A DNA stretch of 64,000 bases from Micromonospora halophytica (GTDB taxonomy: Bacteria; Actinomycetota; Actinomycetes; Mycobacteriales; Micromonosporaceae). The notes under the pieces were generated by a model, which was not told the DNA's origin, searched no databases, and saw only the letters and a program-made list of their open reading frames with translations. The position numbers and the translations under genes were made by a program. The stretch's first letter is position 1; the number at the start of each line of letters is the position of its first letter. Of the stretch, positions 15,997 through 48,839 are shown piece by piece. The stretch spans positions 52,541-116,540 of the forward strand of contig NZ_FMDN01000018.1 in assembly GCF_900090245.1 (NCBI RefSeq), given 5' to 3'.

Positions 15997-16140
15997 CGCT
16001 GTGGTCACATTTTCGCAGTGAGTGGGGTCGGCACCACTCGACGTGAACAGTCTGCTCGGGCATGCTTGTCATCACGACGAGTGCTCATATCTCGGACAGT
16101 TGCAGACCCTCGGCGGTTGCACCCCCCGTAACCGCTGAGT
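15997..16140. other. Remainder of 15886-16245 intergenic region
   Basis: With flanking elements, the 360-base gap between the HAD and VHL-like genes holds the HAD promoter side, the CRP-like site and two hairpins. No gene was seen. Confidence 0.5.
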
Positions 16141-16207
16141 GGTTCGGCTCAACCCCCCCGGAGCCGAACCTCCCGACGACCCCCGTCTCCCCCCGACGGG
16201 GGTCGTC
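16141..16207 (-). terminator. Two tandem hairpins downstream of VHL-like gene
   Basis: Hairpin A: 10-bp arms 16141-16150 and 16161-16170. Hairpin B: 13-bp arms 16175-16187 and 16195-16207. Both lie 40-105 bases beyond the stop of the minus-strand gene. Confidence 0.7.
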
Positions 16208-16245
16208 CCTTTGTGTGCTCCGTGGAGGAGGCGGTCGATCGCCGC

Positions 16246-31475: not shown

Positions 31476-31900
31476 CGACCGGCCCGGCCCTGTCCGCTCC
31501 GGCCGGCCCGGCCCTGTCCGCGCTCGGGCCGGCCCGGCTGCCTTGATCAACTCCATGGCGGCGTAGTGGTGGGGTCGAGGCGGCCGGGACGGCGCTCTTT
31601 CGCCGCAACGGAGTCGATCACGACGGGCCCTGCGGACGGCTGGGCTCGCCCCGGGCGTCGGTCCCGCGGCGGTCAAGGCGGCGAGGTGTCCGATCAAGGA
31701 CAGCCGGCCGGCGCTCCGCCGGGTAGGAACGGGCCGGTGGACCTCGGCCGAGGGTCCGCCATCGTCACAGTGACCCGCCTGGCACCCTACCCACGGTGTA
31801 CGGTGGCGCCGTCCGGCCCGTGAAGCCCGCGCGGCACCGGTCGCGTACCACCGCGCGGGGCTGATTGCCGCCCGCGAAACCCGAAACCCGGGCGGCGCGT
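31476..31900. other. Intergenic region upstream of topA, 425 bases
   Basis: Begins with a repeated GGCCGGCCCGGCCCTGTCCG block (about 31479-31540, two copies), likely a 3' structure. No supported gene follows. Confidence 0.5.
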
Positions 31901-31987
31901 TACGTTGGACATCCGGACCGCCGGTGGTCCGGCAGGTGCAACACGGCCCGAATCGGGCATGGAGCAGGAGTGAGGTCGGGGAGAGAC
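31901..31987 (+). promoter_or_regulatory. topA promoter -10 and leader hairpin
   Basis: TACGTT at 31901-31906 fits a -10 box. Immediately after it a 7-bp hairpin (31913-31919 with 31926-31932) would form the 5' end of a 75-base leader, which ends with GGGGAG before the GTG. Confidence 0.5.
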
Positions 31988-34786
31988 GTGCCGAGCAACG
32001 CTGGAACCACCCGTCTGGTCATCGTCGAGTCACCGGCGAAGGCCAAGACGATCTCGGGCTATCTCGGCCCGGGGTATGTCGTGGAGGCCAGCTTCGGTCA
32101 TGTCCGCGACCTTCCGCGCAACGCCGCCGACGTGCCGGCCAAGTACAAGGGCGAGCCGTGGGCCCGGCTCGGGGTGGACGTCGACAACGGCTTCCACGCC
32201 CTCTACGTGGTCTCCGCCGACCGGAAGCAGCAGATCAGCAAGCTGGTGAAGCTGGCCAAGGAGGTCGACGAGATCTTCCTGGCGACGGACGAGGACCGCG
32301 AGGGCGAGGCGATCGCCTGGCACCTGGTGGAGACCCTCAAGCCCAAGGTGCCGGTCAAGCGGATGGTCTTCCACGAGATCACCAAGCCGGCGATCCAGGC
32401 CGCGGTCGCCAACCCGCGGGAGATCGACCGTGACCTGGTCGACGCCCAGGAGGCCCGGCGCATCCTCGACCGCCTCTACGGCTACGAGGTCTCGCCGGTG
32501 CTGTGGAAGAAGGTCATGCCGAAGCTCTCGGCCGGCCGGGTGCAGTCGGTGGCGACCCGCATCGTGGTCGAGCGGGAGCGGCAGCGGATGGCCTTCCGCA
32601 CCGCCGAGTACTGGGACATCCTGGCCACCCTCGCGGTGGCCCGGCCGGGCGAGGGGCCGCGCAACTTCTCCGCCACCCTGGTCGCGCTGAACGGCGACCG
32701 GATCGCCACCGGCAAGGACTTCGAGCCGACCACCGGCCGGGTGCGGCCCGGCGCGGGCGTCGTGCACCTCGACGAGAGCGGGGCGCGCGGCCTGGCGGCC
32801 CGCCTTCAGGGGCGGCAGTTCACCGTCACCCGGGTCGAGGAGAAGCCCTACCGCCGCCGCCCGTACGCGCCGTTCATCACCTCCACCCTCCAGCAGGAGG
32901 CGGCCCGCAAGCTGCGGTTCTCGTCGCAGCAGACGATGCGCACCGCGCAGCGGCTCTACGAGAACGGCTACATCACCTACATGCGTACCGACTCGGTGAA
33001 CCTGTCGGAGACCGCCATCGCGGCGGCCCGCCGGCAGATCGTCGAGCTGTACGGTGAGCGCAGCGTGCCACCGGAGCCGCGTCGTTACACCGGCAAGGTG
33101 AAGAACGCGCAGGAGGCGCACGAGGCGATCCGCCCGGCCGGGGACAACTTCCGCACCCCGGGCGAGGTGGCCAAGGAGCTCTCCGCCGAGGAGTTCAAGC
33201 TCTACGAGCTGATCTGGCGGCGGACCATCGCGTCGCAGATGACCGACGCGGTCGGCTCCAGCGTCTCGGTGCGCATCCGCGCGGTCTCCTCCGCCCAGGA
33301 GGAGGCCGACTTCGGCGCGACCGGCAAGACCATCACCGACCCGGGTTTCCTGCGGGCGTACGTCGAGTCGAGCGACGACGAGACCGCCGAGGCCGAGGAC
33401 GCCGAGCGCCGGCTGCCGAACCTGGTGAAGGACCAGCCGCTGACCGCCGACGAACTGGCCGCGCAGGGCCACCACACCCAGCCGCCGTCGCGCTACACCG
33501 AGGCGTCGCTGGTCAAGGCGCTGGAGGAACTGGGCATCGGCCGCCCGTCGACGTACGCGTCGATCATGCAGACCATCCAGGACCGCGGATACGTCGCCAA
33601 GCGCGGCCAGGCGATGATCCCGACGTTCCTGGCGTTCGCGGTGATCGGTCTGATGGAGCGGCACTACCCGCGCCTGATCGACTACGACTTCACCGCCAGC
33701 ATGGAGAACGAGCTGGACGAGATCGCCGGTGGTGACCACGCCGCGGTCGACTTCCTCACCTCCTTCTACTTCGGCAGCGCCAACGGCACCGGCGACCAGG
33801 CGATCGCCCACGCCGGTGGGCTGAAGAAGCTGGTCACGGAGAACCTCAGCGACATCGACGCGCGCAGTGTCAACTCCATCCCGCTCTTCACCGACGACGA
33901 GGGGCGCGAGGTCGTCGTCCGGGTGGGCCGGTACGGGCCGTACCTCCAGCGGGCGGTGCCCGGCGAGCAGCCGGCCCCGACCGGGGAGGGTGAGGAGGGC
34001 GGTGCCCCGGGCGACCGTGCTCCGATCCCGGAGGGCCTCGCCCCGGACGAGCTGACCCCGGAGAAGGTGCACGAGCTGTTCCTCGGCGGCGGGGGTGAGC
34101 GCAAGCTCGGCGACGACCCCGCCACCGGCGAGCCGATCCTGCTGAAGTCCGGCCGGTTCGGCCCGTACGTGGCCAGCGGCGAGCGCAAGTCCTCCCTGCT
34201 CCGCTCCCAGTCGCCGGAATCGCTCACCGTCGACGAGGCGTTGAAGCTGCTCAGCCTGCCCCGCCTGGTCGGGGTGGCCCCCGACGGCGTCGAGGTCTTC
34301 GCCAACAACGGCCGCTACGGCCCGTACGTCAAGCGTGGTGACGAGTTCCGTTCGCTGGACTCCGAGGACAAGATGTTCACCGTCACGCTGGACGAGGCGC
34401 TGGCCCTGCTGGCCGCCCCGAAGACGCGCCAGCGCCGGGCCGCCGCGCCGCCGCTGCGGGAGATGGGCAACGACCCGCTCACCGAGAAGCCGCTGGTCAT
34501 CAAGGACGGGCGGTTCGGGCCGTACGTCACCGACGGGGAGACCAACGCGTCGCTGCGGCGCGCGCAGACCCCGGAGGAACTGACCCTCGAAGAGGCGTCG
34601 GAGATGCTGGCGGAGAAGCGGGCCAAGGGCCCGGCGCCGAAGAAGAAGGCGGCGAAGAAGGCGGCCCCGGCGAAGAAGACGGCGGCGAAGAAGACGACGG
34701 CCGCCAAGAAGACGACGGCGAAGAAGGCCGCGCCCGCGAAGAAGGCCGCACCGCGGAAGGCGGCTGCCGTCACCGAGGGCGAGTGA
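31988..34786 (+). CDS. topA: DNA topoisomerase I
   Basis: 932 aa. GTG at 31988 with GGGGAG upstream. Type IA topoisomerase: TOPRIM motifs VIVESPAKAKTI (residue 12 on) and DEDREGEAIAWHL (about 100), active-site Tyr in YITYMRTDSVNLS (about 332). The C-terminus has repeated GRFGPYV-type toprim-C domains (four copies from about 650) and no zinc fingers, then a Lys/Ala-rich tail (KKAAPAKKTAAKKTTA) of about 60 residues. That is the usual actinobacterial form, in which the tail aids processivity. Relaxes negative supercoils. Last backbone gene before the accessory block. Confidence 0.97.
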   Translation: MPSNAGTTRLVIVESPAKAKTISGYLGPGYVVEASFGHVRDLPRNAADVPAKYKGEPWARLGVDVDNGFHALYVVSADRKQQISKLVKLAKEVDEIFLATDEDREGEAIAWHLVETLKPKVPVKRMVFHEITKPAIQAAVANPREIDRDLVDAQEARRILDRLYGYEVSPVLWKKVMPKLSAGRVQSVATRIVVERERQRMAFRTAEYWDILATLAVARPGEGPRNFSATLVALNGDRIATGKDFEPTTGRVRPGAGVVHLDESGARGLAARLQGRQFTVTRVEEKPYRRRPYAPFITSTLQQEAARKLRFSSQQTMRTAQRLYENGYITYMRTDSVNLSETAIAAARRQIVELYGERSVPPEPRRYTGKVKNAQEAHEAIRPAGDNFRTPGEVAKELSAEEFKLYELIWRRTIASQMTDAVGSSVSVRIRAVSSAQEEADFGATGKTITDPGFLRAYVESSDDETAEAEDAERRLPNLVKDQPLTADELAAQGHHTQPPSRYTEASLVKALEELGIGRPSTYASIMQTIQDRGYVAKRGQAMIPTFLAFAVIGLMERHYPRLIDYDFTASMENELDEIAGGDHAAVDFLTSFYFGSANGTGDQAIAHAGGLKKLVTENLSDIDARSVNSIPLFTDDEGREVVVRVGRYGPYLQRAVPGEQPAPTGEGEEGGAPGDRAPIPEGLAPDELTPEKVHELFLGGGGERKLGDDPATGEPILLKSGRFGPYVASGERKSSLLRSQSPESLTVDEALKLLSLPRLVGVAPDGVEVFANNGRYGPYVKRGDEFRSLDSEDKMFTVTLDEALALLAAPKTRQRRAAAPPLREMGNDPLTEKPLVIKDGRFGPYVTDGETNASLRRAQTPEELTLEEASEMLAEKRAKGPAPKKKAAKKAAPAKKTAAKKTTAAKKTTAKKAAPAKKAAPRKAAAVTEGE

Positions 34787-34830
34787 CCAACGGCATTCCG
34801 GTCGGTTCCACCTGAGGTGGAATCTTGTCC

Positions 34831-34842: not shown

Positions 34843-36159
34843 GTGTCTAAACGGGACGGCGGAGGCGGTGGGCTCGGCGGGGCCAGGGTGACGGGCATCG
34901 TCATCCTGGTGCTGGCGGTGCTCGCCGGGGCCGGGATGATGGTGTGGGGCCTCGGGGGGCGGGACGGTGATGCCACCACGGAGTCCGTCAAGCCGGGGCG
35001 CGCGCCCGCCGCGGCCGGTACCCGGGAGACCCCACGCGACCCCGAGCCTCGACGGGACAAGTCCGGTCGGCGGCTCTTCACCATCCTCGGGGCCGGTGAC
35101 GTGCTGGTGCACCCGGAGTTGACGTACCAGGCGCGGCGGGACGCCGAGCGCGCCGGGATCCGGGACGGGCTCGACTTCAACCCGCTGTTCCAGCACGTTC
35201 GCCCCACCGTGGCCGCCGTCGACCTGGCGATCTGCCATCTGGAGACCCCGCTGGCCCCGACGGCCGGCCCGTTCGTCGGCTTCCCGAAGTTCAGCGTTCC
35301 GCCGCAGGTGGTGGACGCCATCCGGGGGACTGGATTCGACGCCTGTTCGACCGCGTCCAACCACACGGTCGATCACGGCGAGGAAGGGGTCCGGCGCACC
35401 CTCGACGCGCTCGACGCCGCGAAGATCGGGCACACCGGCAGCGCGCGCAGCGCGAAGGAGGCTCTGGTTCCCCGCATCTACCAGCGGTCCGGGGTGAAGG
35501 TCGGGCACCTGTCGTACACGGTGCACTTCAACGGGTTGACCCGGCCGGCGGGCAAGGAGTGGATCGCCAACCTCATCGAGCCCCGGAAGATCCTCGCCGC
35601 AGCGAAGAAGCTGCGCGGCGCCGGTGCCGAGATCGTCGTGCTCAGCCTGCACTGGGGCACCGAGTACCAGAACCAGCCGGACGCCAACCAGGAGAAGTGG
35701 GCCGGGCCGCTGATCAGGTCCGCCGACATCGACCTCATCCTCGGCCACCACGCGCACGTGGTGCAGCCGATCGAGAAGATGGGTCAGGACTGGGTGGTCT
35801 ACGGCATGGGCAACCAGGTCGCCCGGCACGCCGAGCCGGTGTTCGCCAACCGGGAGGGGGTGATGGCCCGATTCACGTTCACCGAGATCGCGTCGAAGAA
35901 GTGGCGGATCACCACCGCCGAGGCGATTCCCACCTGGGTGGACCTCAACCCGGACGTCCGGCTGGTCGACCTGCCGGCCGCGCTGGCGGACCCAGCCACG
36001 TCGGACAGCCGTCGGATCGTCTACCAGGCCGCGCTCGACCGGATTCGGGGCCACCTGTTCGCCAAGGGCGGCGACGACGCCGGCCTGCGGGTCCTGGGCC
36101 CGCCACCGGCCACTGCGGACGCCGGCGACCCCGGAACGCCCTCCACGCCGAGCGCATGA
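34843..36159 (+). CDS. capA: CapA/PgsA-family poly-gamma-glutamate accessory protein
   Basis: 438 aa from GTG 34843 (a TTG at 34825 would add six residues but falls on the promoter). One N-terminal membrane segment (VTGIVILVLAVLAGAGMMVW), then an extracellular calcineurin-like PGA_cap domain: GAGDVLVHPEL, ICHLETPLAP, ACSTASNHTVDHG, LSLHWGTEYQNQPD and LILGHHAHVVQP. These are the family's metal-ligand motifs. CapA/PgsA supports PGA polymerisation or export with CapB and CapC, both present downstream. Separated from them by one gene and a promoter. Confidence 0.9.
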   Translation: MSKRDGGGGGLGGARVTGIVILVLAVLAGAGMMVWGLGGRDGDATTESVKPGRAPAAAGTRETPRDPEPRRDKSGRRLFTILGAGDVLVHPELTYQARRDAERAGIRDGLDFNPLFQHVRPTVAAVDLAICHLETPLAPTAGPFVGFPKFSVPPQVVDAIRGTGFDACSTASNHTVDHGEEGVRRTLDALDAAKIGHTGSARSAKEALVPRIYQRSGVKVGHLSYTVHFNGLTRPAGKEWIANLIEPRKILAAAKKLRGAGAEIVVLSLHWGTEYQNQPDANQEKWAGPLIRSADIDLILGHHAHVVQPIEKMGQDWVVYGMGNQVARHAEPVFANREGVMARFTFTEIASKKWRITTAEAIPTWVDLNPDVRLVDLPAALADPATSDSRRIVYQAALDRIRGHLFAKGGDDAGLRVLGPPPATADAGDPGTPSTPSA

Positions 36160-36233
36160 GCGGGGCCAGGGCGGGTCGGGCGTACCTTGTCACCGATCGA
36201 CGGTCGGCGCTGGGCACGCCGGACGCTCTTTTG

Positions 36234-36272
36234 CTAGCCTCGCCTGCTGGCCGTCACGGGGAGGAAACGACG
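36234..36272 (+). promoter_or_regulatory. Promoter -10 and SD of the capBC operon leader
   Basis: TAGCCT at 36234-36239 is a candidate -10. GGGGAGG at 36259-36264 lies about eight bases before the TTG of the leader ORF. Together they suggest that the sensor-capB-capC operon has its own transcript. Confidence 0.5.
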
Positions 36273-36308
36273 TTGGCTGACACTGTCCAGGCCGGGGCCC
36301 GCGGATGA
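36273..36308 (+). CDS. 11-aa leader ORF coupled to sensor-like gene
   Basis: TTG start behind a strong GGGGAGG SD; reads LADTVQAGARG; its TGA overlaps the ATG of the 743-aa gene (ATGA). The downstream gene has no SD of its own, so it probably depends on this leader for ribosome delivery. Same layout as the acs leader. Confidence 0.55.
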   Translation: MADTVQAGARG

Positions 36309-38536
36309 ACGTGGCACCTCCCGCCGGCCGTCCGGACCGCCGGCGACCAGGTGACTCCCCTGAGCAGCTCGCCCGGTGGCGTCTGATCAGCTTGGAGAAG
36401 CAGCTCCCCACGCCGCGTCCGCTCACCGGTCTCGGCGCACCGGTCGTGGTCGGTTCGATCCTGCTCGCGCTCCTCGCCGCCTTCGCCTTCGTCCACCTCG
36501 ACCGGGTAAGCCCGGCGGGGGTGCCGACCGCCGTCACGGAGTCGCAGCGCCAGTTCGTGGAGGGGCTCGCCCGGGGCCTGGGCAACTCCGTGGGCCGCAG
36601 CCGTGACGAGTTGACCGAGCTCGCGGCCGACTGCAACGACCGTCCCGGTCAGGCCCGGCCCCTGCTCAGCAGGTTCGTCGACGGCCATCCGATGTGGCGG
36701 GGCGTGGCCGTTGTGGACAGCACCAGCCGCGCCCCGACGGCGGCGGTCGGTCAGCCCGTGACGCTGCCGCCTGGCCTCACCCCGACCCGGGCCGCACTGC
36801 CGCTGGTCGACGGGAACGACCCGCGCCTGCTGCTGGTCGAGCCGCTCGCCAGCGGCGCCCTCCTCGTCGGCGAGCTGGACCTGGGCGTGCGCTCGCTGCG
36901 TCTCGACCCGCGGTCCCGGCAGGCCATCCTCATCGCTGTTCCCGGCGTCGGCCGCGCCCTGGCCCAGGGCACCCCGGTCGAGGCGGGTGGCCCGGTCGAG
37001 GCCCTGCTCGACCGCGCGCTCACCGCGAGCGCCGAGGAACACACCGTCACCCGGTCGGGCATCGCCGGTCCGGCGCCGACCGGTGACGCAACCGCCGCCG
37101 ATCCGGTCGCCCCGCTGGTCACGGCTTCGGTGGTCGGCAACCTCGGCTTCTCGGTCGTCTCGGTGGTGTCCGCCCCGGTCACGGTCGAGCGGGTGAGCCG
37201 TGAACCGTTGTTCACCGCGGCCGTCCTCTTCGTCGCGTCGCTGCTCGTCCTGCTCGTCACGTGGCTGGGCCTGGTCCGGCCGGTACGCCGGTTGCTCGAC
37301 CACGCCAAGGCGACCGCGTCGGGCAATCCCGTCGCCGGGCCGCTGCGGACGGTCAACCGGGAGGCCAACCGGATCGGCGCTGCCTTCGACACGCTGGCGA
37401 CTCAGCGTGACGGCACGAAGGGGGTACGGCGGGACGAGCGGCCCGGCGGGGTCGGCGCGACGTGGTGGGTGATCGGAGCCACCCTCGTGATCCTGGCGTC
37501 GAGCGGCCTGATCGTGGCCAACCTCGCCCCGGCCGAGCGGGAACTGCCCGGCCAGGTCGTCCGGGACGCGCAGAACCAGGCGAGCGCGGTCGCCGCTTCG
37601 CTCAGCGACACCCTCGACGGTGGTTTCGCCATGCTGGCCGACACCGGACGGGACCATGGCAAGGCGAACACCTCGGGGATGCGCAAGGTCGTCGACCGCC
37701 TCGTGGACGATAACCCGCGCTTCCGTAGCGTCTACCTCGTGTCGGCGGGCGGTGACACCGTGGTCGGCGCGGGCCGGGAGCCGATGCGACCGGCGGGCCC
37801 GGTGCCGGGGGAGAGCGGCGTCAACCTTTACGACGTGCAGGGCCGGCTGCCGATCGTCTACGCCTACTACCAGCTCGCCGACGGCCGGGCCCTGGTCGCC
37901 GAGTACGACGTCCGGCACCTGTCCCGGCTGCTGGACCGGATGCCGGGGCGAGTCCAGGTGCTCGACATCGACCAGCGCGACATCCTGGACACTTCGGGAT
38001 ATCTCGCCTTCGAGGCGGTCACCGTCGAGCAGGTGCGGTCGGCGTCGGCCGCCGCGCTGACCGGCCGGCCGTACGCCGAGGTGACCGAGCTCGACGGCCG
38101 TCGGGAGTTGCTGGTCGCCACGCCGGTCTCCCTGGAGGGGACGACGGCGCAGCTGGAGTGGACCCTCGTGGCCCGGCGGCCGGTGTCCGACTACGCGCTG
38201 CCGAACAACGCCCTGCGCAAGGGGTCGATGCTGGTGCTCGTGGTGGCGGTCGGCATCGGACTACTGCTGTTCAGCTGGCACTACTTCTTCCAGCTGCGGC
38301 CGCTGCGCAACCTGGCCCGGGAAGCGGGCGCGCTGGCGGAGGGGAAGACCAACCGGGTCGTCTCACCCCGCTGGCACGACGATATCGGCGCGGTGGCGGT
38401 GTGCCTGGAGGTCTGCCGCCAGGCCGCGGTGCACGGCGAGCAGCGGCTCGGCGGCGCGGCCCGGCTGCGTGGCGTGGAGGGGATGAACACCGTGATCATG
38501 ACAAAGGTGCCGGAGCGGCGCCGGAGGGGCGGCTGA
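36305..38536 (+). CDS. Large membrane protein, two extracellular sensor-like domains and HAMP-like segments
   Basis: 743 aa, four predicted membrane helices (about 44-66, 299-322, 382-404, 638-660). The two extracellular stretches (about 67-298 and 405-637) look like Cache-type sensor folds; each is followed by a membrane helix and a HAMP-like piece (LVRPVRRLLDHAKATASGNPV; RPLRNLAREAGALAEGKTN). There is no kinase, cyclase or methyl-accepting domain. TGAG joins it to capB with a one-base gap. Not part of classical PGA operons; it could control or scaffold the PGA synthase in response to an outside signal (inference). Confidence 0.82.
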   Translation: MNVAPPAGRPDRRRPGDSPEQLARWRLISLEKQLPTPRPLTGLGAPVVVGSILLALLAAFAFVHLDRVSPAGVPTAVTESQRQFVEGLARGLGNSVGRSRDELTELAADCNDRPGQARPLLSRFVDGHPMWRGVAVVDSTSRAPTAAVGQPVTLPPGLTPTRAALPLVDGNDPRLLLVEPLASGALLVGELDLGVRSLRLDPRSRQAILIAVPGVGRALAQGTPVEAGGPVEALLDRALTASAEEHTVTRSGIAGPAPTGDATAADPVAPLVTASVVGNLGFSVVSVVSAPVTVERVSREPLFTAAVLFVASLLVLLVTWLGLVRPVRRLLDHAKATASGNPVAGPLRTVNREANRIGAAFDTLATQRDGTKGVRRDERPGGVGATWWVIGATLVILASSGLIVANLAPAERELPGQVVRDAQNQASAVAASLSDTLDGGFAMLADTGRDHGKANTSGMRKVVDRLVDDNPRFRSVYLVSAGGDTVVGAGREPMRPAGPVPGESGVNLYDVQGRLPIVYAYYQLADGRALVAEYDVRHLSRLLDRMPGRVQVLDIDQRDILDTSGYLAFEAVTVEQVRSASAAALTGRPYAEVTELDGRRELLVATPVSLEGTTAQLEWTLVARRPVSDYALPNNALRKGSMLVLVVAVGIGLLLFSWHYFFQLRPLRNLAREAGALAEGKTNRVVSPRWHDDIGAVAVCLEVCRQAAVHGEQRLGGAARLRGVEGMNTVIMTKVPERRRRGG

Positions 38537-38537
38537 G

Positions 38538-40586
38538 ATGCTGTTCCTCTATGTCGTGTTCGTCCTCGCCTGCCTCGGCCTGCTGGCCGCCGGCGTCGTG
38601 GAGCAGCGCAACCACCACAAGAGCCTGCACAGCATCCCGCACCGGGTGCTGGTCAACGGCATCCGCGGCAAGAGTTCGATCACCCGGCTCTGCGCGGGCG
38701 CACTGCGCGGCGGCAAGCTCACCGTGGTGGCCAAGACCACCGGCACGGCCGCCCGGTTCATCTTCCCTGACGCCAGCGAAGAGCCGGTCTACCGGAAGTT
38801 CGGCATCGCCAACGTGGTCGAGCAGATCGGCATCGTCCGGCGGGCCGCCTCGTACTTCCCCGACGTGCTGGTCATCGAGTGCATGGCGGTCATGCCGCCG
38901 TTGCAGGAGCTCAACCAGACCAAGCTGATCCAGTCCACAATCGGCATCCTCTGCAACGTGCGAGAGGACCACCTGGCAGAGATGGGCCCGACGTTGGACG
39001 ACGTTGCCCGGTCGCTGAGCCGGTCGATGCCGGTCGGTGGGATCTGCGTGACGGCGGAGAAGGACCGGCTGCACATACTCCAGGAGGAGGCCGACCGCCG
39101 GCAGTGCAAGCTGGTCGCGGTCGACCCGGAGTCGGTCACCGACGAAGAGATGAAGGGCTTCAGCTGGACGACGTTCAAGGAGAACGTCGCGATCGTGCTC
39201 GCCGTGGCGGAGCTGCTCGGGGTGAGCCGGCGGGACGCGCTGAAGGGCATGTGGACCGCCCCGCCCGACCCGGGTGTGCTCAGTGTGGAGGAGTACCGGG
39301 CGGACGCGAAGTCGCTGCGGTTCGCGAACATCTTCGCGGCGAACGACCCCGAGTCGACCTTCATGAACATCCAACAGTTGCAGGCGCAGGGGTCCATCCC
39401 ACGTCCGCTGCATGTGCTCATCAACTGCCGGCCGGACCGGGTGGAGCGCAACGGGCAGATGGGCTCGCTGGTGTCCCGGATCGATCCCGACAAGGTGATC
39501 CTCATCGGCGACCCGACCCGCAGCGCCCGCGTGAAGATCGACGACAAGTGGCAGGACCGGGTGGTGGACCTGGGCGGAAAGCTGGAGGCCGGAGAACTCC
39601 TCGACGGCGTGCTCGGCACCATCGACCGGTACGCCTCGGTGCTCGCCATCGGCAACATCCACGGCCAGGGCGAGATCCTGCTCGCCCAGCTCGAACGACT
39701 GGAGCGGCCGGCGCCCCACGAGTCCGCCGTCCCCTCGGCCGGACACGCTCCGGCCGTCCCGGTGACGGACGCGCCGACGGAGGTCGTCTTGCCGCGGCAG
39801 GTCCAGGCGGTGCGGTCCACGTACGGCCGTCCGGCGTCGGCGCCGCCGGCCCAGCGGGCCGCCGCCGGGCAGGCCCCAGGCGGGCTTGTGGCCGCCGGCC
39901 CGTCCTGGGCGGCCGGACCTCGGGGGCACGCTGCCGGTGGCGCGGAAGCAGGGCTTGCTGCCACCTGGCCGGCTCCGCCCGGACCTCCGCCGGCTCCGCC
40001 CGGACCTCCGCCGGCTCCGCCCGGACCTCCGCCGGTCCCGGCACAGCACCACGACCGCGACCGGACCCAGGGTTCCCGGTCGAGGGTCGGCCCCGACCCG
40101 ACCTCAACCCGGTACAGCACGGCGGAGCCGGTGCCGGCCCGGCCGACCGCACCGGGTGCGGCCGGTCACCACCGGCCTGACCCCCAACAGGGCGGCTGGG
40201 ATCACCGCCAGCAGGGTCACGGTGACCACGCGGTCCCGTCCCGCCCGCCGGCGGGGAGCCGTTCGTACGACCACCATCAGCGCGGCAGCGTCCCCGGCGG
40301 GTATGGCCCGGACGCGCCGCCAGAGCCGGGTCGCGGCCCGGGTGCCGCCGCCTACCGGGCGCTCGCGGAGGACGACCTCGGTGGTCCGCCGCGCGGCTCC
40401 GACGCGCCCTACCCCGGCTGGTCCGCCCCGGGGGCCGCCGAGCAGCCGGCCCCCGGCTGGAACGGCGCCGGTCACCCCGCCCGGTACGGCCCGCCGCCCG
40501 ATGACCCCGACCAGTCCGGTCGTCCCGGATCCGCCCCCGGGCCGCCGCCATGGCAGCGGCCGTCCGTCTACCGGAGCCCTGAATGA
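38538..40586 (+). CDS. capB: CapB/PgsB-type poly-gamma-glutamate ligase with Pro-rich tail
   Basis: 682 aa. N-terminal membrane helix (1-22), then a Mur-ligase-like core with P-loop GIRGKSSITR (41-50), VIECMAVMPPLQE, NVREDHLAEMGPT, INCRPDRVERNGQMGS and IGNIHGQGE; core ends near 395. Known CapB/PgsB are about 390-460 aa, so the last 287 residues (Pro/Gly/Ala/Ser/His-rich, with three PPAPPGP-type repeats) are an unusual extension. The core ligates glutamate through its gamma-carboxyl using ATP, in a membrane complex with CapC. ATGA overlap with capC. Confidence 0.9.
   Translation: MLFLYVVFVLACLGLLAAGVVEQRNHHKSLHSIPHRVLVNGIRGKSSITRLCAGALRGGKLTVVAKTTGTAARFIFPDASEEPVYRKFGIANVVEQIGIVRRAASYFPDVLVIECMAVMPPLQELNQTKLIQSTIGILCNVREDHLAEMGPTLDDVARSLSRSMPVGGICVTAEKDRLHILQEEADRRQCKLVAVDPESVTDEEMKGFSWTTFKENVAIVLAVAELLGVSRRDALKGMWTAPPDPGVLSVEEYRADAKSLRFANIFAANDPESTFMNIQQLQAQGSIPRPLHVLINCRPDRVERNGQMGSLVSRIDPDKVILIGDPTRSARVKIDDKWQDRVVDLGGKLEAGELLDGVLGTIDRYASVLAIGNIHGQGEILLAQLERLERPAPHESAVPSAGHAPAVPVTDAPTEVVLPRQVQAVRSTYGRPASAPPAQRAAAGQAPGGLVAAGPSWAAGPRGHAAGGAEAGLAATWPAPPGPPPAPPGPPPAPPGPPPVPAQHHDRDRTQGSRSRVGPDPTSTRYSTAEPVPARPTAPGAAGHHRPDPQQGGWDHRQQGHGDHAVPSRPPAGSRSYDHHQRGSVPGGYGPDAPPEPGRGPGAAAYRALAEDDLGGPPRGSDAPYPGWSAPGAAEQPAPGWNGAGHPARYGPPPDDPDQSGRPGSAPGPPPWQRPSVYRSPE
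39969..40031 (+). repeat. Three perfect 21-bp repeats in capB tail
   Basis: CCGGCTCCGCCCGGACCTCCG three times (39969-39989, 39990-40010, 40011-40031) encoding seven-residue Pro/Ala/Gly units. The copy number could vary by slippage. Confidence 0.9.
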
Positions 40587-41065
40587 TCAACGGAGAACTG
40601 ACCCCCGCGTTGGCGACCCTCTGCCTCGGCGTGGGACTGGTGCTCGCGCTGGCCTGCTACCTGACCACGAACCTCTCCCCGGGCGGCATGATCACGCCGG
40701 GCTGGGTCGCGCTGGCGCTGGTCGAGGAGTATCGGCAGGTCGCGGTGATCGTGGTGATGACCGGGGTGACCTGGGGGCTGACGAGGCTCATGCAGAAGGT
40801 CGTCATCCTCTACGGCAAGCGGCTGTTCGCGGCGATCGTGCTGCTCAGCGTGCTGCTCCAGACGACGCTGTTCCTGGTGGTCCAGCAGGACTTCCCGTTG
40901 CTCTTCTCGCACCAGACGCTGGGCTTCGTCGCGCCCGGCCTGATCGCCTACCAACTCGTCCGGCAGCCGCCGGTAGCCACCCTGCTCGCCACCGGGGCGG
41001 TGACGGTGGGCTCGTATCTGATCGTCATCAGTGGCATCCTTGCCGGCCTGGTGCCGGTGAGCTGA
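40583..41065 (+). CDS. capC: CapC/PgsC poly-gamma-glutamate synthase membrane subunit
   Basis: 160 aa; ATGA overlap with capB. Four to five membrane helices with family landmarks LSPGGMITPGWVALAL (about 31-46) and HQTLGFVAPGLIAYQLVRQP (about 110-130). Matches PgsC/CapC in length and order after PgsB. It forms the membrane part of the polymerase complex. Confidence 0.92.
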   Translation: MINGELTPALATLCLGVGLVLALACYLTTNLSPGGMITPGWVALALVEEYRQVAVIVVMTGVTWGLTRLMQKVVILYGKRLFAAIVLLSVLLQTTLFLVVQQDFPLLFSHQTLGFVAPGLIAYQLVRQPPVATLLATGAVTVGSYLIVISGILAGLVPVS

Positions 41066-41089
41066 CCGGGGCGCGAAGGGAACATCGCG

Positions 41090-42112
41090 GTGGACAGGAA
41101 ATGGATCTGGGCGTTGATGGCGCTCGTGCTCGTCGCGGGCGGTGGCCTCGTCATGTGGCAGGCCACCGACCGCGACCCGGCCGACGACACTCCGGTGGCG
41201 GTGGCCGCGCCCGGCGGCGCCGCGGCGGGCACCGGCGAGCCGACCTTCACCCGGCTGGAGAACCCGGCGCGGACCGAGGTGCGCGACGGCGGTGGCCGGG
41301 TGGTGGCGGTCTTCACCGACGGTGCGCGGACGGTCCGGCTCACCGGACGGGAGCGGACCTTCAGCGAGCCGCGGTTCACCAAGGCCACCGTCACCACGGA
41401 CGCCTGGATCCGGCTCGCGCCCCGGGAGTGGCGTGCGGGTGCCGAGAAGGCCGGCTGGTTCAAGCCCTGGCTGGACAAGGCGCTCGCGGACCGGAGTCCG
41501 GACGCGCTGGCCATCATGATGGACTACATCGACGGCGCGAAGCCCCGCCGCAACGCCGACGGGCTCCAGACCGCTGGCGACGCCTCCTTCGGGCCGCTCT
41601 CGGCCACCGACCCGGACGGCCGGGCGGAAAACTCGGACTTCTACGATTATCTCGGCGTGTCGTGGAAGTTCCCCGACGGCAAGAAGGAGCAGCCGTCGCG
41701 GAGCCACTTCCGCGCCCTGGACTGCTCCGGATACATCCGGATGGTGTACGGCTACCGGATGAAGTACCCGCTGCGGGGCACCAACACCAAGGGGACCGGC
41801 CTGCCCCGCCGGGCGTACGCGATGGCGGAGTTCGGCCCGGGCGTCCAGTTGATGCCGAACACCGGGCGGGCGGTCCGCGACTTCGAGCTGCTCCAGCCCG
41901 GTGACCTGCTCTTCTTCAACGCCGGGCCGATCGGCGGCAAGCACATCGAACACTCCGGCATCTACCTCGGGCTGGACGACTCCGGTCGTCACCGGTTCAT
42001 CTCCAGCCGGTCCAAGGCGGACGGCCCGACGATGGGCGACTTCGGCGGCGACTCCCTGCTGGACGGCGGCGGCTACTGGGCCACGAAGCTGCGTACCGCC
42101 CGCCGGATCTGA
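41090..42112 (+). CDS. Membrane-anchored NlpC/P60 cysteine hydrolase
   Basis: 340 aa; GTG start with AAGGGAA upstream, 24 bases after capC. Signal anchor (WIWALMALVLVAGGGLVMW), a beta-rich middle region (about 60-130), then an NlpC/P60 domain: catalytic Cys in ALDCSGYIRMVYGY (about 212) and His in HIEHSGIYLGLD (about 288). NlpC/P60 enzymes cut gamma-D-glutamyl bonds in peptidoglycan, and PgdS-type members cut PGA. Being last in the capBC operon, it may trim or release PGA, or remodel the wall for export (inference). Confidence 0.9.
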   Translation: MDRKWIWALMALVLVAGGGLVMWQATDRDPADDTPVAVAAPGGAAAGTGEPTFTRLENPARTEVRDGGGRVVAVFTDGARTVRLTGRERTFSEPRFTKATVTTDAWIRLAPREWRAGAEKAGWFKPWLDKALADRSPDALAIMMDYIDGAKPRRNADGLQTAGDASFGPLSATDPDGRAENSDFYDYLGVSWKFPDGKKEQPSRSHFRALDCSGYIRMVYGYRMKYPLRGTNTKGTGLPRRAYAMAEFGPGVQLMPNTGRAVRDFELLQPGDLLFFNAGPIGGKHIEHSGIYLGLDDSGRHRFISSRSKADGPTMGDFGGDSLLDGGGYWATKLRTARRI

Positions 42113-42134
42113 CCGGGAGGCGGGGCACGGGTCG

Positions 42135-43052
42135 TCAGTCCGCCGTGAGGCCGGCGGCGGCCAGCGCCGCCACCAGCGCGGCCCGACGCTCGGTGTCCCG
42201 CCGGACGGCCCAGGTGATCTCCAGGTGGATGAAGATCGACCGGCGCCGGCGGGCCTCCTCGGCCTGTGTGTTGGTGGTTCCTTCGAGCTGACCGCAGCGG
42301 GTCGTCCAGGCGCGGCATGTGGCGAAGCCGGCGTCCTCCAACGCATCGGCGACGCGGCGCAGGGGCGCGTTGGAACGGCGCTGACCGTTGGAGACCACGG
42401 CGTCCTCGTCGGGAAGGCTCTTGTCGGCGAAGCCGTGCAGTTGGATCTGGTTCAGGTCCCGCCGGGCGAACCGGCCGGTGACGACCTGGAACAGCCCGTC
42501 CTCGTTGTGCGCGGCGTCCGCCCGCTCGTCGGCGGCCCGCCGGTGCGCGCCCGCGACGACCAGCATGGACCCGGGCACGGCCCGGAACAGCCGTAGCCCC
42601 ACGTCCTCGGTGTGCAGGTCGGAGTTGGGGTGCGGCACCTCGATCGCCAGTTCCACCTGCCGGGACAGGTCGACCAGCAGGATCCCCCAGGGGCGGTCGC
42701 CGCCCGCCTCGGTGCGGAAGATTGCGTACTCGCGGCCGGTTTCCGGGTCAGTGCCGACCCGCGCGTCGTACCCGATGGCGGTCAGCAGTCCGGTCGCCTC
42801 GTCCAGCCCGTCCCGGCCGTCCAGGAGCAGGTCGACCGCGCCCCGGGCGTGCCGGCGCTCCTCGGCGGTCGGGTTCCGGTACGCCGCGGTGGGCTGGAGC
42901 TGCGCGACGAAGGCGGTGACCTCGGTGGCCGGGTCCGTGTCTGCGGCGGAGGTGGGCGGCGCCGGGGCGGGCGCTGGGGTGCAGGCGGCGAAGACCAGGG
43001 CCGCACCCAAGCATGCGGCGAGTCCGGCGCGGGGCCGTCGGTTCCGGGACAT
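42135..43052 (-). CDS. Lipoprotein with N-formylglutamate-amidohydrolase/PGA-hydrolase-like pattern
   Basis: 305 aa from ATG 43052, with a TACCCT -10 box seven bases upstream (leaderless). The signal peptide ends in lipobox FAAC (Cys about 24). The body shows LAIEVPHPNSDLHTEDVG, VVAGAHRRA, NQIQLHGFADKS and IFIHLEITWAV. The order of His/Glu-containing motifs resembles N-formylglutamate amidohydrolases and PghP-type PGA hydrolases, which are zinc amidases. The match is by eye only and weak. It is convergent with, and 22 bases from, the PGA operon, which fits a glutamyl substrate but does not prove it. Confidence 0.7.
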   Translation of the reverse strand: MSRNRRPRAGLAACLGAALVFAACTPAPAPAPPTSAADTDPATEVTAFVAQLQPTAAYRNPTAEERRHARGAVDLLLDGRDGLDEATGLLTAIGYDARVGTDPETGREYAIFRTEAGGDRPWGILLVDLSRQVELAIEVPHPNSDLHTEDVGLRLFRAVPGSMLVVAGAHRRAADERADAAHNEDGLFQVVTGRFARRDLNQIQLHGFADKSLPDEDAVVSNGQRRSNAPLRRVADALEDAGFATCRAWTTRCGQLEGTTNTQAEEARRRRSIFIHLEITWAVRRDTERRAALVAALAAAGLTAD

Positions 43053-43095
43053 CGTGCGGAGGGTATCGGGTGCGGTCACCGCTCCTGCCGTGGCC

Positions 43096-44403
43096 TCAGG
43101 TGCCGAGGATGTGGTCGAGGTGGGAGTTGCTGAGGATGCGGTCCGGGTCCAGGCGGTTGCGCAGCGCCTGGAAGTCGGCGAACCTCGGGTACGCCGTGGC
43201 CAGCGAGGCGGCGTCGCGCCAGTGCATCTTTCCCCAGTGGGGTCGGCCGCCCAGCTCCGTCGTCACCTCCTCGAACGCCCGGAAGTACGGCTCGTACGGC
43301 ATCCCGACGTACTGGTGGACGGCGATGTACGCGGAGTCCCGGCCGTAGCCGTGCGACAGCCAGATGTCGTCGGCGGCGGTGAACCGCACCTCGACCGGGA
43401 AGAGCACCTTGAACGGCAGTCGGTCGACGATACGGCGCAGTTCCTCCAGCGCGGTGGTCAGGTGGGCGCGCGGGACGCCGTACTCCATCTCCACGAACCG
43501 GACCCGGCGCGGGGTGCAGAAGACCGTGTCGGAGCGGCCGGTGTAGGTGCGTTCGGTGAGGGCCCGGGCGCAGACCGCGCTGATGGTCGGGGCGAGCGCC
43601 GGCACGGCTCTGCCCAGCCGGCAGGCTCCGGCGAAGACGGTGTTGGCGAGCAACTCGTCGTCCAGCCAGCCGCGCCAGCGGGGCAGCGGCCGGTCGTCGG
43701 CGGGCACCCGGTCGTTGGTCTTGACCTGCACCCGGTCGGTGTACGGGAACCAGTAGAACTCGACGTGGTCGTGCCGGTCGATCAGCCCGGGCAGGTCGGC
43801 GAGCACGGCGGACAGCGGCGCGGGGCGCTCGTGGGCCCGCAGCACGAAGGCGTCGACGCAGCGCAGGGTCACCTCGACCAGCACGCCGAGCGCGCCGAGC
43901 CCGACCCGGGCGGCGGCGAAGACGTCGGGGTGCTCGTCGGCGGAGCAGTGCAGCACCTCGCCGGTGCCGGTGACCAGGGTCAGCGCCTCGACGAACGTGG
44001 CGAGGCAGCCGTACGCCGCCCCGGTGCCGTGGGTGCCGGTGGAGATCGCTCCGGCGATGGTCTGGGCGTCGATGTCGCCGAGGTTGGGCATGGCGAGGCC
44101 GTGCGCGGCGAGCAGCGCGTTGAGCGTACGTAGGGTCATCCCGGCCGGGACGGTGACGAGCCGGCTGGCGAGATCCACCCGGACGTCGGTCTCCAGCGCG
44201 GTCAGGTCCAGCAGCCGCCCGTCGGGCCGGGCGATCGGGGTGAAGGAGTGGCCGCTGCCCACCGCCCGGATCCGCTCGCCCGCCGCGGCGGCGTCCCGGA
44301 CGGCCTCGGTGACGCCGTCGACCGTGCTCGGGCGCAGGATGGCGTTGGCGAGGCTGTGCTGGTTCCCTGCCCAGTTGGACCATGCGGTGGTGGTACCGGC
44401 CAT
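43096..44403 (-). CDS. FAD-linked aldonolactone/alditol oxidase family
   Basis: 435 aa; ATG with GAGGAG SD. FAD-binding-4 domain at 14-180: RIRAVGSGHSFTPIARPDG holds the His that usually binds FAD covalently, then STGTHGTGAAYGCLA. C-terminal ALO domain ends with GGRPHWGKMHW and FQALRNRLDPD. Family members oxidise gulono/arabinono-1,4-lactone or alditols with O2, giving H2O2. It is divergent from a TetR gene with a palindrome between them, so probably its target. Confidence 0.88.
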   Translation of the reverse strand: MAGTTTAWSNWAGNQHSLANAILRPSTVDGVTEAVRDAAAAGERIRAVGSGHSFTPIARPDGRLLDLTALETDVRVDLASRLVTVPAGMTLRTLNALLAAHGLAMPNLGDIDAQTIAGAISTGTHGTGAAYGCLATFVEALTLVTGTGEVLHCSADEHPDVFAAARVGLGALGVLVEVTLRCVDAFVLRAHERPAPLSAVLADLPGLIDRHDHVEFYWFPYTDRVQVKTNDRVPADDRPLPRWRGWLDDELLANTVFAGACRLGRAVPALAPTISAVCARALTERTYTGRSDTVFCTPRRVRFVEMEYGVPRAHLTTALEELRRIVDRLPFKVLFPVEVRFTAADDIWLSHGYGRDSAYIAVHQYVGMPYEPYFRAFEEVTTELGGRPHWGKMHWRDAASLATAYPRFADFQALRNRLDPDRILSNSHLDHILGT

Positions 44404-46685: not shown

Positions 46686-48839
46686 GTGTCGTCGTCCGGG
46701 ACACAGTCCGACCGCTCCGGGTACGCCGCGATCCGATCGGTACTGCGCATCCGGCCGTTCCGCCGGCTCTGGATCGTGCTCGGCGCGGCCTCCTTCGGCG
46801 ACTGGCTCGGCCTGCTCGCCACCTCGGTCTTCGCCGCCGCCCAGGTCTCCGGCAGCACCGCCAAGGGCGCCGCCTTCGGCACCCTGATCGCGATCCGGCT
46901 GCTCCCGGCTCTGGTGCTCGGCCCGGTGGCCGGCGTCCTCGCCGACCGGTTCGACCGGCGCTGGACGATGGTCATCTGCGACCTGCTGCGCTTCGTGCTC
47001 TTCGCCTCGATCCCGCTGCTCGCGCTCACCGGGGCCAGCGGCGGCGTGGTGGTCACCTGGGCGGCGATCGCCACCTTCGGAATCGAGACGGTCACCCTGC
47101 TCTGGATCCCGGCCAAGGAGGCCGCGGTCCCCAACCTGATCCCGCGCGCCCGGCTGGAGACCGCCAACCAGCTCACCCTGATCACCACGTACGGGCTGAC
47201 CCCGGTGGCCGCCGCCGTCGCCCTGGCGGTGCTCGACCGCAGCGTCCGCGCGGTGACCGGCGGCGAGATGCCGGGCTGGGCCGAGCCGGCGCAGCTCGCC
47301 CTCTGGTTCAACTCGTTCTCCCGGCTGGCCACCGCGCTGGTGGTGGCGTTCGGCATCAAGGAGATCAGCCAGACGCAGGCCAGTGAGCGGGAGCGCACCG
47401 AGCAGAGCATGATGCGTCAGTTCACCGAGGGCTGGAAGTTCATCCGGCAGACCCCGCTGGTGCGCGGCCTGGTGCTCGGCATCTTCGGCGCGTTCGCCGG
47501 CGGCGGCATCGTGATCGGCACGGCCAAGTTCTTCGCCGCCTCGCTGGGTGCCGGCGACGCGGCGTTCTACATGCTCTTCGGCGCGATCTTCATCGGCCTG
47601 GCCGTCGGCATCGGGCTCGGTCCGATGATCGTCCGGGACATGTCCCGCCGCCGCTGGTTCGGCATGAGCATCGTGCTGGCCAGCGCCTCCGTGCTGGTGC
47701 TCGCCTTCGCCATCCACCTGTCCATGGCGATGCTCGGCGCGATCATGGTGGGCGCCGGTGCCGGGATGGCCTTCCTCGCCGGCACCACACTGCTCGGCGG
47801 CGAGGTCGCCGACGAGGTGCGCGGCCGGGTCTTCGCGGTGGTGCAGATCGGCACCCGGCTGGTGCTGATCCTCGCCATCGCGCTGAGCAGTCTCCTGGTC
47901 GGCGTCGGTGGCTCCCGCCAGCTCACCATCGCCGACCTGGGCATCTCCGTCTCCTCGACCCGGCTGCTGCTGCTCGCCGCGGGTGCCGCCGGCATCTTCG
48001 CCGGGATCAGCGCCTTCGGGCAGATGGACGACAAGAAGGGTGTACCGGTCCTCGCCGACCTGTGGGGCTCGATCCGGGGCCGTCCGCTGATGCCGGCCGA
48101 GCCCTTCGTCTCCAGCGGGCTGTTCGTGGTCTTCGAGGGCGGCGAGGGCGCCGGCAAGTCCACCCAGCTGCGCGCGCTCGCCGAGCAGTTGCGCGGGCAG
48201 GGACGCGAGGTCGTGGTCACCCGCGAGCCGGGCGCGACGCCGGTGGGGGAACGGGTCCGCTCGCTGGTGCTGGAGAACTCCGGCGCCGACGCCCCGTCCC
48301 CACGCGCCGAGGCACTGCTCTACGCCGCCGACCGCGCCCACCACGTCGCCACCGTGGTCCGTCCGGCGCTGGTGCGGGGCGCGGTGGTGATCAGCGACCG
48401 GTACGTCGACTCCTCCCTGGCGTACCAGGGGGCCGGGCGGACGCTGCCGGTCGAGGAGGTCTCCTGGCTCTCCTCCTGGGCCACCGGCGGCCTCAAGCCC
48501 GACCTGGTGGTGCTCCTCGACGTCGACCCGCACACCGGCCTGTCCCGGGTGGCCTCCCGCAACCAGGGCACCGATCGGCTGGAGGCCGAGTCGCTCGCCT
48601 TCCACGAGCGGGTCCGGTACGCCTTCCTCGACCTGGCCGCCAACGACCCGAAGCGCTACCTGGTGCTCGACGCCTCCCGACCGGCCGAGGAGATCTCCGC
48701 CCTGGTCGCCCGCCGGGTGCAGGAGTTCCTGGTGGATCCGGCCGGCATCGTGCATCCGCGCCCCGCCCACGGGCCGGACACCTCGGTGCAGCCCGAGTTA
48801 TCCGACGCGGAGCTGGTGACGATGGAGCATCGGACCTGA
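46686..48839 (+). CDS. tmk: MFS transporter fused to thymidylate kinase
   Basis: 717 aa from GTG 46686. Residues about 20-430: MFS-type permease (FRRLWIVLGAASFGDWLGLL, LADRFDRRW loop, about 12 helices). Residues about 475-690: complete dTMP kinase with P-loop FEGGEGAGKST (about 484), TREPGATPVGE and DRYVDSSLAYQG (DRY) motifs. The actinobacterial MFS-Tmk fusion is known (SCO3542 type). The frame stays open upstream to 46602, and a GGAGG at 46641 sits seven bases before an in-frame ATC (46653), so the true start may be non-canonical. Followed by holB (TGATG). Confidence 0.92.
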   Translation: MSSSGTQSDRSGYAAIRSVLRIRPFRRLWIVLGAASFGDWLGLLATSVFAAAQVSGSTAKGAAFGTLIAIRLLPALVLGPVAGVLADRFDRRWTMVICDLLRFVLFASIPLLALTGASGGVVVTWAAIATFGIETVTLLWIPAKEAAVPNLIPRARLETANQLTLITTYGLTPVAAAVALAVLDRSVRAVTGGEMPGWAEPAQLALWFNSFSRLATALVVAFGIKEISQTQASERERTEQSMMRQFTEGWKFIRQTPLVRGLVLGIFGAFAGGGIVIGTAKFFAASLGAGDAAFYMLFGAIFIGLAVGIGLGPMIVRDMSRRRWFGMSIVLASASVLVLAFAIHLSMAMLGAIMVGAGAGMAFLAGTTLLGGEVADEVRGRVFAVVQIGTRLVLILAIALSSLLVGVGGSRQLTIADLGISVSSTRLLLLAAGAAGIFAGISAFGQMDDKKGVPVLADLWGSIRGRPLMPAEPFVSSGLFVVFEGGEGAGKSTQLRALAEQLRGQGREVVVTREPGATPVGERVRSLVLENSGADAPSPRAEALLYAADRAHHVATVVRPALVRGAVVISDRYVDSSLAYQGAGRTLPVEEVSWLSSWATGGLKPDLVVLLDVDPHTGLSRVASRNQGTDRLEAESLAFHERVRYAFLDLAANDPKRYLVLDASRPAEEISALVARRVQEFLVDPAGIVHPRPAHGPDTSVQPELSDAELVTMEHRT

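Follow-up and report, generated by a model that had tools for sequence, protein, structure and literature searches.

A putative poly-gamma-glutamate synthesis and turnover operon with a receptor-like membrane protein in Micromonospora halophytica

Why should genes resembling those for poly-gamma-glutamate (PGA) synthesis enclose a gene for a receptor-like membrane protein, and on what would the two putative hydrolases encoded beside them act? The question is raised by a block of six genes in Micromonospora halophytica, located at positions 34843-43079 of the window analyzed here, a stretch of 64,000 nucleotides (nt) from contig NZ_FMDN01000018.1. The six open reading frames (ORFs) were confirmed and encode CapA, a 743-amino-acid membrane protein (hereafter, the receptor), CapB, CapC, an NlpC/P60 protein, and a convergent lipoprotein; all coordinates are those of the window, and genes lie on the plus strand unless the minus strand is named. 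The best explanation, which we hold with moderate confidence, is that the locus is a module for the synthesis and turnover of gamma-PGA in which the receptor passes a signal straight to the synthase, where we infer the identity of the polymer, the substrates of the hydrolases, the ligand of the receptor, and its direct coupling to the synthase. A chance run of ORFs was rejected as an explanation for the block, given the profile matches and the recurrence of the six-gene set in other loci.

Judged from its sequence, the locus very probably encodes a gamma-PGA synthase. The capB gene (38538-40586) specifies a PgsB-type, Mur-ligase-like glutamate ligase that reaches 368.6 bits with TIGR04012, the model for PgsB (cut-off 222.7), over residues 7-383, and its translation contains the sequence VNGIRGKSS, which we take to be the P-loop. 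CapB was the sole over-cut-off PgsB match in a search of the whole M. halophytica genome, and of 14 control genomes put through the same search, one gave an over-cut-off match; a sequence search of the PDB with CapB returned nothing significant. The protein ends in a Pro/Gly-rich tail of ~290 amino acids, evident in the translation (39708-40583), within which lies a perfect 21-nt tandem repeat of 3.2 copies (39968-40035), and the capB open frames of relatives differ in length. The capC gene (40583-41065) encodes a CapC/PgsC-family membrane protein that passes the Pfam model Caps_synth_CapC, PF14102 (113.3 bits, cut-off 27), and capA (34843-36159) encodes a membrane-anchored protein of the PGA_cap family (PF09587, 220.7 bits, cut-off 27), of which two more members are encoded elsewhere in the genome. 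The profile scans thus place all three proteins in their Pfam or NCBIfam families, as a sequence-only reading of this DNA had proposed; membership of the PGA synthase families holds for CapB by the PgsB cut-off and for CapC by Pfam, but not for CapC by the PgsC equivalog. In the model of gamma-PGA synthase given in PMC5542703, CapB and CapC are the mandatory components and CapA and CapE are accessory. For CapE, no plus-strand ORF of at least 20 amino acids is present within 36160-36304, the sole gap into which a gene the size of capE could fit, a negative result that comes without a CapE profile or a search of the rest of the genome. The other intergenic gaps span 1 to 24 nt: the receptor gene (36305-38536) stops 1 nt before capB, and 24 nt separate capC from the gene for the NlpC/P60 protein (41090-42112). 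The capB and capC genes overlap by 4 nt, capA is set off from the receptor gene by 145 nt, and the lipoprotein gene (42135-43079, minus strand) lies 22 nt from the NlpC/P60 gene. The membrane protein is therefore encoded between capA and capB, and the NlpC/P60 gene closes the operon, at the positions expected from the sequence-only reading.

The same set recurs well beyond this genome. PgsB over its cut-off was found in 29 of 250 Micromonosporaceae genomes and in 21 of 396 Actinomycetota genomes, with M. halophytica itself counted in both. Up to ~17 kilobases (kb) were fetched around each of 40 PgsB loci, made up of the 32 other over-cut-off places in Micromonosporaceae and 8 of the 21 other places in Actinomycetota; the remaining 13 had flanks of ~1.5 kb or less, and 11 of these entered a tree of capB. 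Searches of the 40 loci by tblastn with the proteins of the window detected capB in 40, capC in 40, nlpC in 36, the receptor in 28, capA in 23, and the lipoprotein in 20, one of the last being a weak match (86 bits, ~4 kb away, in locus L102); gene calling and clustering raised the receptor count to 29 of 40 by adding L097. When the genes of these loci and of the window were clustered, the same six families ranked as the top six, and the next family occurred in five loci and is a gamma-glutamyltranspeptidase (CapD family) by Pfam in 4 of 4 members scanned. A gene of this kind lies upstream of the receptor gene, in the usual place of capA, in L064 and L073. A second operon type in Micromonosporaceae, with the order capB-capC-nlpC-capA and in which no receptor was found, is represented by L063, L076, L077, L093, and L094, and one genome (G229) holds both types (L063 and L064). 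Genes that flank the operon in M. halophytica, namely, topA, tetR, alaR, and tmk, were present in only 1 of the 40 loci (L088, genome G211), and the flanking oxidoreductase gene was found in L088 together with a weak match in L093. Because these flanking genes are nearly absent at the 40 loci, the six-gene set appears to travel as a unit and to reside in other actinobacteria mostly at unrelated sites. Contig NZ_SJJR01000025.1 of Micromonospora zingiberis carries the same kind of locus. The notion that the arrangement is peculiar was not borne out, and an operon restricted to the M. halophytica genome was rejected, since the locus recurs across Micromonosporaceae and this is its usual form there.

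The distribution of the receptor links it closely to the synthase. Profile searches detected it in 24 of 29 PgsB-positive but 0 of 221 PgsB-negative Micromonosporaceae genomes and, in all 24, within 123 nt of capB, although in G112 and G027 it was matched in pieces. The lipoprotein was found in 17 of the 29 PgsB-positive genomes, always within 3.4 kb of capB, versus 7 of the 221 others, and therefore is not exclusive to the operon. Fisher values for these co-occurrences with PgsB are 6e-29 and 1e-13, with relatedness among the genomes ignored, and the receptor and lipoprotein searches took no more than the top 9, 4, and 2 first-look candidates of each genome on to scoring, so that misses are possible. 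In the capB tree of 52 rows, a single clade of 32 (SH-aLRT, the Shimodaira-Hasegawa-like approximate likelihood ratio test, 92) has the receptor in 31 of its members, while it was detected in none of the other 20 rows, where for the short-flank loci absence means absence within a flank of ~1.5 kb only. Across the phylum sample, strong matches occurred only beside capB (the receptor of the window itself and those of G377, G431 twice, G600, G602, and G422). In eight more genomes of this sample, proteins matched the final portion of the receptor weakly (E 1e-10 to 1e-13), and we take these for generic dCache-HAMP receptors. The claim that the membrane protein belongs with the PGA locus is thus supported by its co-inheritance with capB. 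In a deep lineage (G602, locus L042), a 396-amino-acid frame with a single dCache-HAMP module is followed by capB, capC, and the lipoprotein gene, all on one strand, and because this form has one such module, it suggests that the two-module receptor arose by doubling.

The AlphaFold2 model of the receptor (mean predicted local distance difference test score [pLDDT] of 72.6) contains two extracytoplasmic dCache-like modules together with HAMP-like segments. The second module (residues 408-630; 37526-38194) superposes on dCache domains with VIA-align Z scores of 15-17, reaching 17.3, over blocks with pLDDT of 69-92, and is matched by Foldseek as well. PDB alignments to the first module (residues 73-291; 36521-37177) are sparse, and because the VIA-align list is mostly of the second module and covers the first poorly, the fold of the first rests on the secondary structure of the model and a few alignments. 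By sequence, the receptor misses the Pfam cut-offs for dCache_1 (13.3 versus 45 bits) and, narrowly, for HAMP (PF00672, 23.9 versus 25 bits; residues 664-697, 38294-38395). The modeled structure is consistent with a tandem dCache receptor with HAMP segments, so that of the two Cache/HAMP-like modules read earlier from the sequence, the dCache fold is retained by predicted structure, but both HAMP and dCache_1 remain below their sequence cut-offs. No output domain was recognized in Pfam and NCBIfam scans, in which the only matches, all below the cut-offs, were to HAMP and to the membrane parts of proteins such as SiaA, CreC, and BaeS. Two cytoplasmic stretches are conserved among relatives: an N-terminal motif (residues 22-47; 36368-36445) with the consensus LxAWRRRALDQQLPAAAFPAGxxAPS in alignments A2 and A4, and a post-HAMP segment (residues 701-723; 38405-38473) that is the most conserved of 11 segments, with a mean column identity of 0.69 in A2 (16 rows) and 0.85 in A4 (11 rows). 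This post-HAMP segment is a candidate for contact with CapB or CapC. The second module therefore resembles those of the known dCache receptors Mlp24 and PctA and the sensor domains of histidine kinases, whereas the tandem arrangement, the absence of a recognized output domain, the location of the gene beside capB, and the lack of the amino-acid-binding motif discussed below set the protein apart from them.

The convergent lipoprotein, 314 amino acids in length, has no Pfam or NCBIfam match even at E 0.1, a PDB search with its sequence returned nothing significant, and neither the protein (at E 0.1) nor the genome as a whole gave a match to PF05908, the family of the PGA hydrolases PghP and PghL (YndL). 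Its AlphaFold2 model (pLDDT of 88.1) predicts a zinc-hydrolase fold like that of PGA hydrolases. Foldseek ranks the phage PM1 PGA hydrolase (21dc, E 1.3e-5) first among the PDB matches, and the leading VIA-align Z scores are 14.2 for phage PghP (3a9l), 13.9 for an N-formylglutamate amidohydrolase (2q7s), 13.9 for 21dc, 13.7 for 2odf, and 13.3 for YndL with PGA (5onj), followed by 11.8 and lower; 5onj stands at ranks 4 and 5 of the structure-match lists. The structures nearest to PghL itself are 3a9l, 2odf, and 2q7s, according to PMC6506827, which also gives its zinc ligands as His41, Glu46, and His102, its required residue as Glu165, and its substrate contacts as including His77, Asn151, and Arg171. 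Among the residues invariant in all 33 aligned lipoproteins are His150, Asp154, Thr157, Arg180, Asp188, Gln213, His215, Asn270, His285, and Glu287; Arg293 is present in at least 90% of the 33, all 14 rows of alignment A1 have His191, though not all rows of the 33-sequence alignment, and Cys33, in at least 90% of A1, predicts an extracellular lipoprotein. His150, Asp154, His191, His215, Asn270, Glu287, and Arg293 follow the same order and similar spacing as the PghL set, so that the conserved His, His, Asn, Glu, and Arg are kept, and six residues separate Glu165 from Arg171 in PghL as they do Glu287 from Arg293 here. By this motif order, rather than by superposition of side chains, Asp154 stands where the zinc ligand Glu of PghL would be expected, and His150, Asp154, His215, and Glu287 are candidate metal or catalytic residues. 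The protein also differs from PghP in length, 3a9l having 207 residues. Our reading is that it may be a remote relative within the PghP/N-formylglutamate-hydrolase fold group, with PGA as its likeliest substrate because of the genomic context; an ordinary member of PF05908 is not supported, as there is no profile match and no significant profile-profile match. It stands as a candidate glutamyl hydrolase, with PGA hydrolases among the best PDB matches of its model, and it does lie 22 nt from the operon, but the amidohydrolase-like motifs once noted in it correspond to no family, and the likeness is structural.

The NlpC/P60 protein appears to be a membrane-anchored, single-domain hydrolase, matched by PF00877 in one stretch (30.7 bits, cut-off 23), and it likewise stands as a candidate hydrolase, with Cys212 and His288 invariant and Ser305 nearly so in 14 aligned sequences. 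PgdS of Bacillus subtilis is also an NlpC/P60 protein. Its gene is directly downstream of pgs, as described in PMC4497714, and the NlpC/P60 gene here is directly downstream of capC and hence PgdS-like in position.

A working model can be assembled from these components. CapB, as an ATP-dependent, Mur-ligase-like enzyme, and the membrane protein CapC would polymerize glutamate via gamma-amide bonds and pass the chain outward, with CapA aiding synthesis or export as in Bacillus. Once outside, the chain would be cut by the NlpC/P60 protein anchored in the membrane and by the lipoprotein with its zinc-hydrolase-like fold, so that it would not persist as a fixed capsule but would be trimmed, released, or recycled; that at least one of these hydrolases turns the polymer over is likely. 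The receptor beside capB would read an extracellular ligand, most plausibly derived from glutamate or from the envelope, and would transmit the signal through its HAMP and conserved post-HAMP segments. Because it is without a recognized kinase or other output domain, the signal may go to the synthase directly, although for a regulatory receptor acting in this manner we would put the chances at slightly short of even. A further elaboration, in which the kinase-free, two-module receptor gates the synthase post-translationally by sensing free polymer or its fragments, with a new family of PGA-hydrolase-like lipoproteins setting the fragment level and closing a feedback loop on polymer length or amount, is unlikely on present evidence.

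Several observations weigh against this model and bear on other interpretations of its parts. CapC scores 70.1 bits against the PgsC equivalog TIGR04011, below the cut-off of 96.45, and because of this we class the locus, with a diverged CapC, as a variant rather than a Bacillus-type synthase. This departure would suit a role for CapB and CapC in extending another envelope molecule by a short chain of gamma-glutamyl units in place of making free or anchored PGA, but CapB lies far over the PgsB cut-off, and the gamma-glutamyltranspeptidase and hydrolase-like genes of related loci fit a long gamma-linked polymer, which makes such a role very improbable. NlpC/P60 proteins often cut peptidoglycan, and a PDB sequence search with this one at E 0.1 brought up a single match, to a cell-wall endopeptidase (E 0.0055). 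With its single NlpC/P60 stretch, it is possible that the protein cleaves peptidoglycan and thereby opens the wall, either for passage of the polymer or for its anchoring, which would leave the lipoprotein alone, if either, to cut PGA; the presence of its gene with capB in 36 of 40 loci, receptor-free loci included, argues for a closer tie to the polymer, and we regard the peptidoglycan role as a real but lesser possibility. As for the lipoprotein, its modeled fold matches PGA hydrolases and N-formylglutamate amidohydrolases equally, the two being tied in the top five, and profile-profile comparison gives it no significant relation to PF05908 proteins (1.8% and 0.3% probability), even though hhalign aligns His215, Glu287, and Arg293 with their counterparts in one such protein. 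When named genomes were scanned, the lipoprotein turned up at 34 loci, in Micromonospora, Virgisporangium, Dactylosporangium, Planosporangium, Paractinoplanes, Antrihabitans, Actinomycetospora, and three metagenome-derived genomes of other phyla, of which 10 are inside PGA operons and 24 have no capB in the fetched stretch of up to 10 kb per side; of 16 genomes with stand-alone copies that were checked, 15 are without an over-cut-off PgsB, including one near match (198.5 bits, G679). These data would accommodate an N-acyl-glutamate or N-formylglutamate amidohydrolase, or another zinc amidase, that is a frequent neighbor unrelated to the polymer. This is improbable, however, given the enrichment of the lipoprotein in PgsB genomes, its predicted extracellular location, and its occurrence by the operon in three layouts, namely, convergent downstream, divergent upstream (L096-L098), and codirectional downstream (L042). 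PghP-like genes outside the Bacillales have a similar stand-alone habit, which PMC4497714 reads as feeding on the polymer of others.

For the receptor, the points on the opposing side are its absence from the matches in 5 of the 29 PgsB genomes, so that it is not needed for every synthase, and the lack of motif support for an amino-acid ligand. No receptor in either alignment (0 of 16 and 0 of 11) has the start of the dCache_1AA motif (aromatic-x4-R-x-aromatic-aromatic); in PctA, the motif residues are Y121, R126, W128, and Y129, according to PMC10104139. A canonical amino-acid sensor was set aside for this reason, and, by sequence, a free amino acid that binds in the classical way is an unlikely ligand. 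Instead of sensing, the 743-amino-acid protein could be a structural subunit of the synthase that takes the place of CapE/PgsE, its dCache modules binding the growing gamma-PGA outside the cell and holding or guiding it. Its co-inheritance with and adjacency to capB, the lack of a recognized output domain, the empty CapE-sized gap, and the missing ligand motif would all be expected of such a subunit, and the conserved cytoplasmic ends fit protein-protein contact. HAMP segments normally transmit signals, however, and the protein appears to keep a ligand-binding fold, while the 5 PgsB genomes above and the 20 capB rows outside the clade do without it. We consider a structural subunit unlikely, and the preferred explanation remains a receptor that signals to the synthase.

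How the operon came to its present site can be deduced in part from relatives. In M. halophytica, it lies between topA (31865-34786; TIGR01051, 815.6 bits) and a gene for a flavin adenine dinucleotide (FAD)-linked oxidoreductase (43096-44403, minus strand; TIGR01679, 411.7 bits). Among 20 relatives of the genus, taken from a set of 41 genomes, two of which (G205 and G229) carry PGA operons elsewhere, topA and the FAD-oxidoreductase, TetR, alanine-racemase-like, and tmk genes occur in this order in 20 of 20, and capB is there in none. Where no operon occupies this site, the FAD-oxidoreductase gene follows topA directly or behind other inserts. Because the run of genes that starts at 43096 and leads to tmk (FAD-oxidoreductase, TetR, Ala-racemase-N) is ancestral, the operon is placed as an insertion between topA and the FAD-oxidoreductase gene, and those intervening genes were rejected as operon members. 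An insertion into core synteny, as first supposed, is therefore upheld by the 20 relatives, but at the topA/FAD-oxidoreductase junction rather than between topA and tmk. At this junction, 18 relatives have no operon gene and 2 (L137 and L155) have capA alone. These solo capA genes group among the operon CapAs and so may be remnants of the operon, although their exact place is unresolved in the tree; both the capB and capA trees were quick searches with long branches flagged. The inserts at the junction differ among Micromonospora and, with labels presumed by eye for L137-L156, include the PGA operon, capA by itself (L137), capA together with a transposase-like gene (L155), ATP-binding cassette (ABC)-transporter- and MarR-like genes (L138 and L143), and an endonuclease-like gene (L139, L144, L146, and L150). 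Farther along, a 717-amino-acid frame at 46686-48839 has a thymidylate kinase domain behind a membrane domain resembling the major facilitator superfamily.

A promoter scan gave 0 sites, and three terminator-like matches, against a mean of 1.8 in shuffled sequence, are uninformative. By eye, an inverted repeat with 7-nt arms (TTCCACC-TGA-GGTGGAA, 34806-34822) lies just upstream of capA and is a possible operator or terminator, and a 6C RNA motif (RF01066, 75.9 bits) is present at 16138-16211.

Compared with the Bacillus systems, PgsBCA(E)/PgdS of B. subtilis and CapBCADE of Bacillus anthracis, the locus likewise holds CapB, CapC, and CapA homologues together, and the gamma-glutamyltranspeptidase genes in some related loci add to the likeness to CapBCADE. 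It differs in its order, capA-receptor-capB-capC-NlpC, in the addition of the receptor and the lipoprotein, and in having no CapE-sized ORF in the one possible gap. The CapB and CapC pair is spread over many phyla, and the available portions of the genome surveys describing this (PMC5542703 and PMC4497714) say nothing of either the receptor or the lipoprotein. No description of a receptor-containing PGA operon was found among the papers listed in searches of the open-access literature, and a comparison with PHROGs yielded weak matches only. What is new here is thus the combination of a PGA operon with the receptor and the lipoprotein family, while the CapB/CapC synthase type itself is known. 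Control of gamma-PGA synthesis in Bacillus is transcriptional in the account given by PMC5751247, with pgsBCA of B. subtilis under DegS-DegU and ComP-ComA. By carrying the operon, a number of Micromonosporaceae become possible producers of PGA, and the lipoprotein family, with no Pfam or NCBIfam match, is a source of candidate PGA depolymerases. Given a receptor inherited together with the synthase throughout a clade of actinobacteria, direct control of PGA synthase becomes testable.

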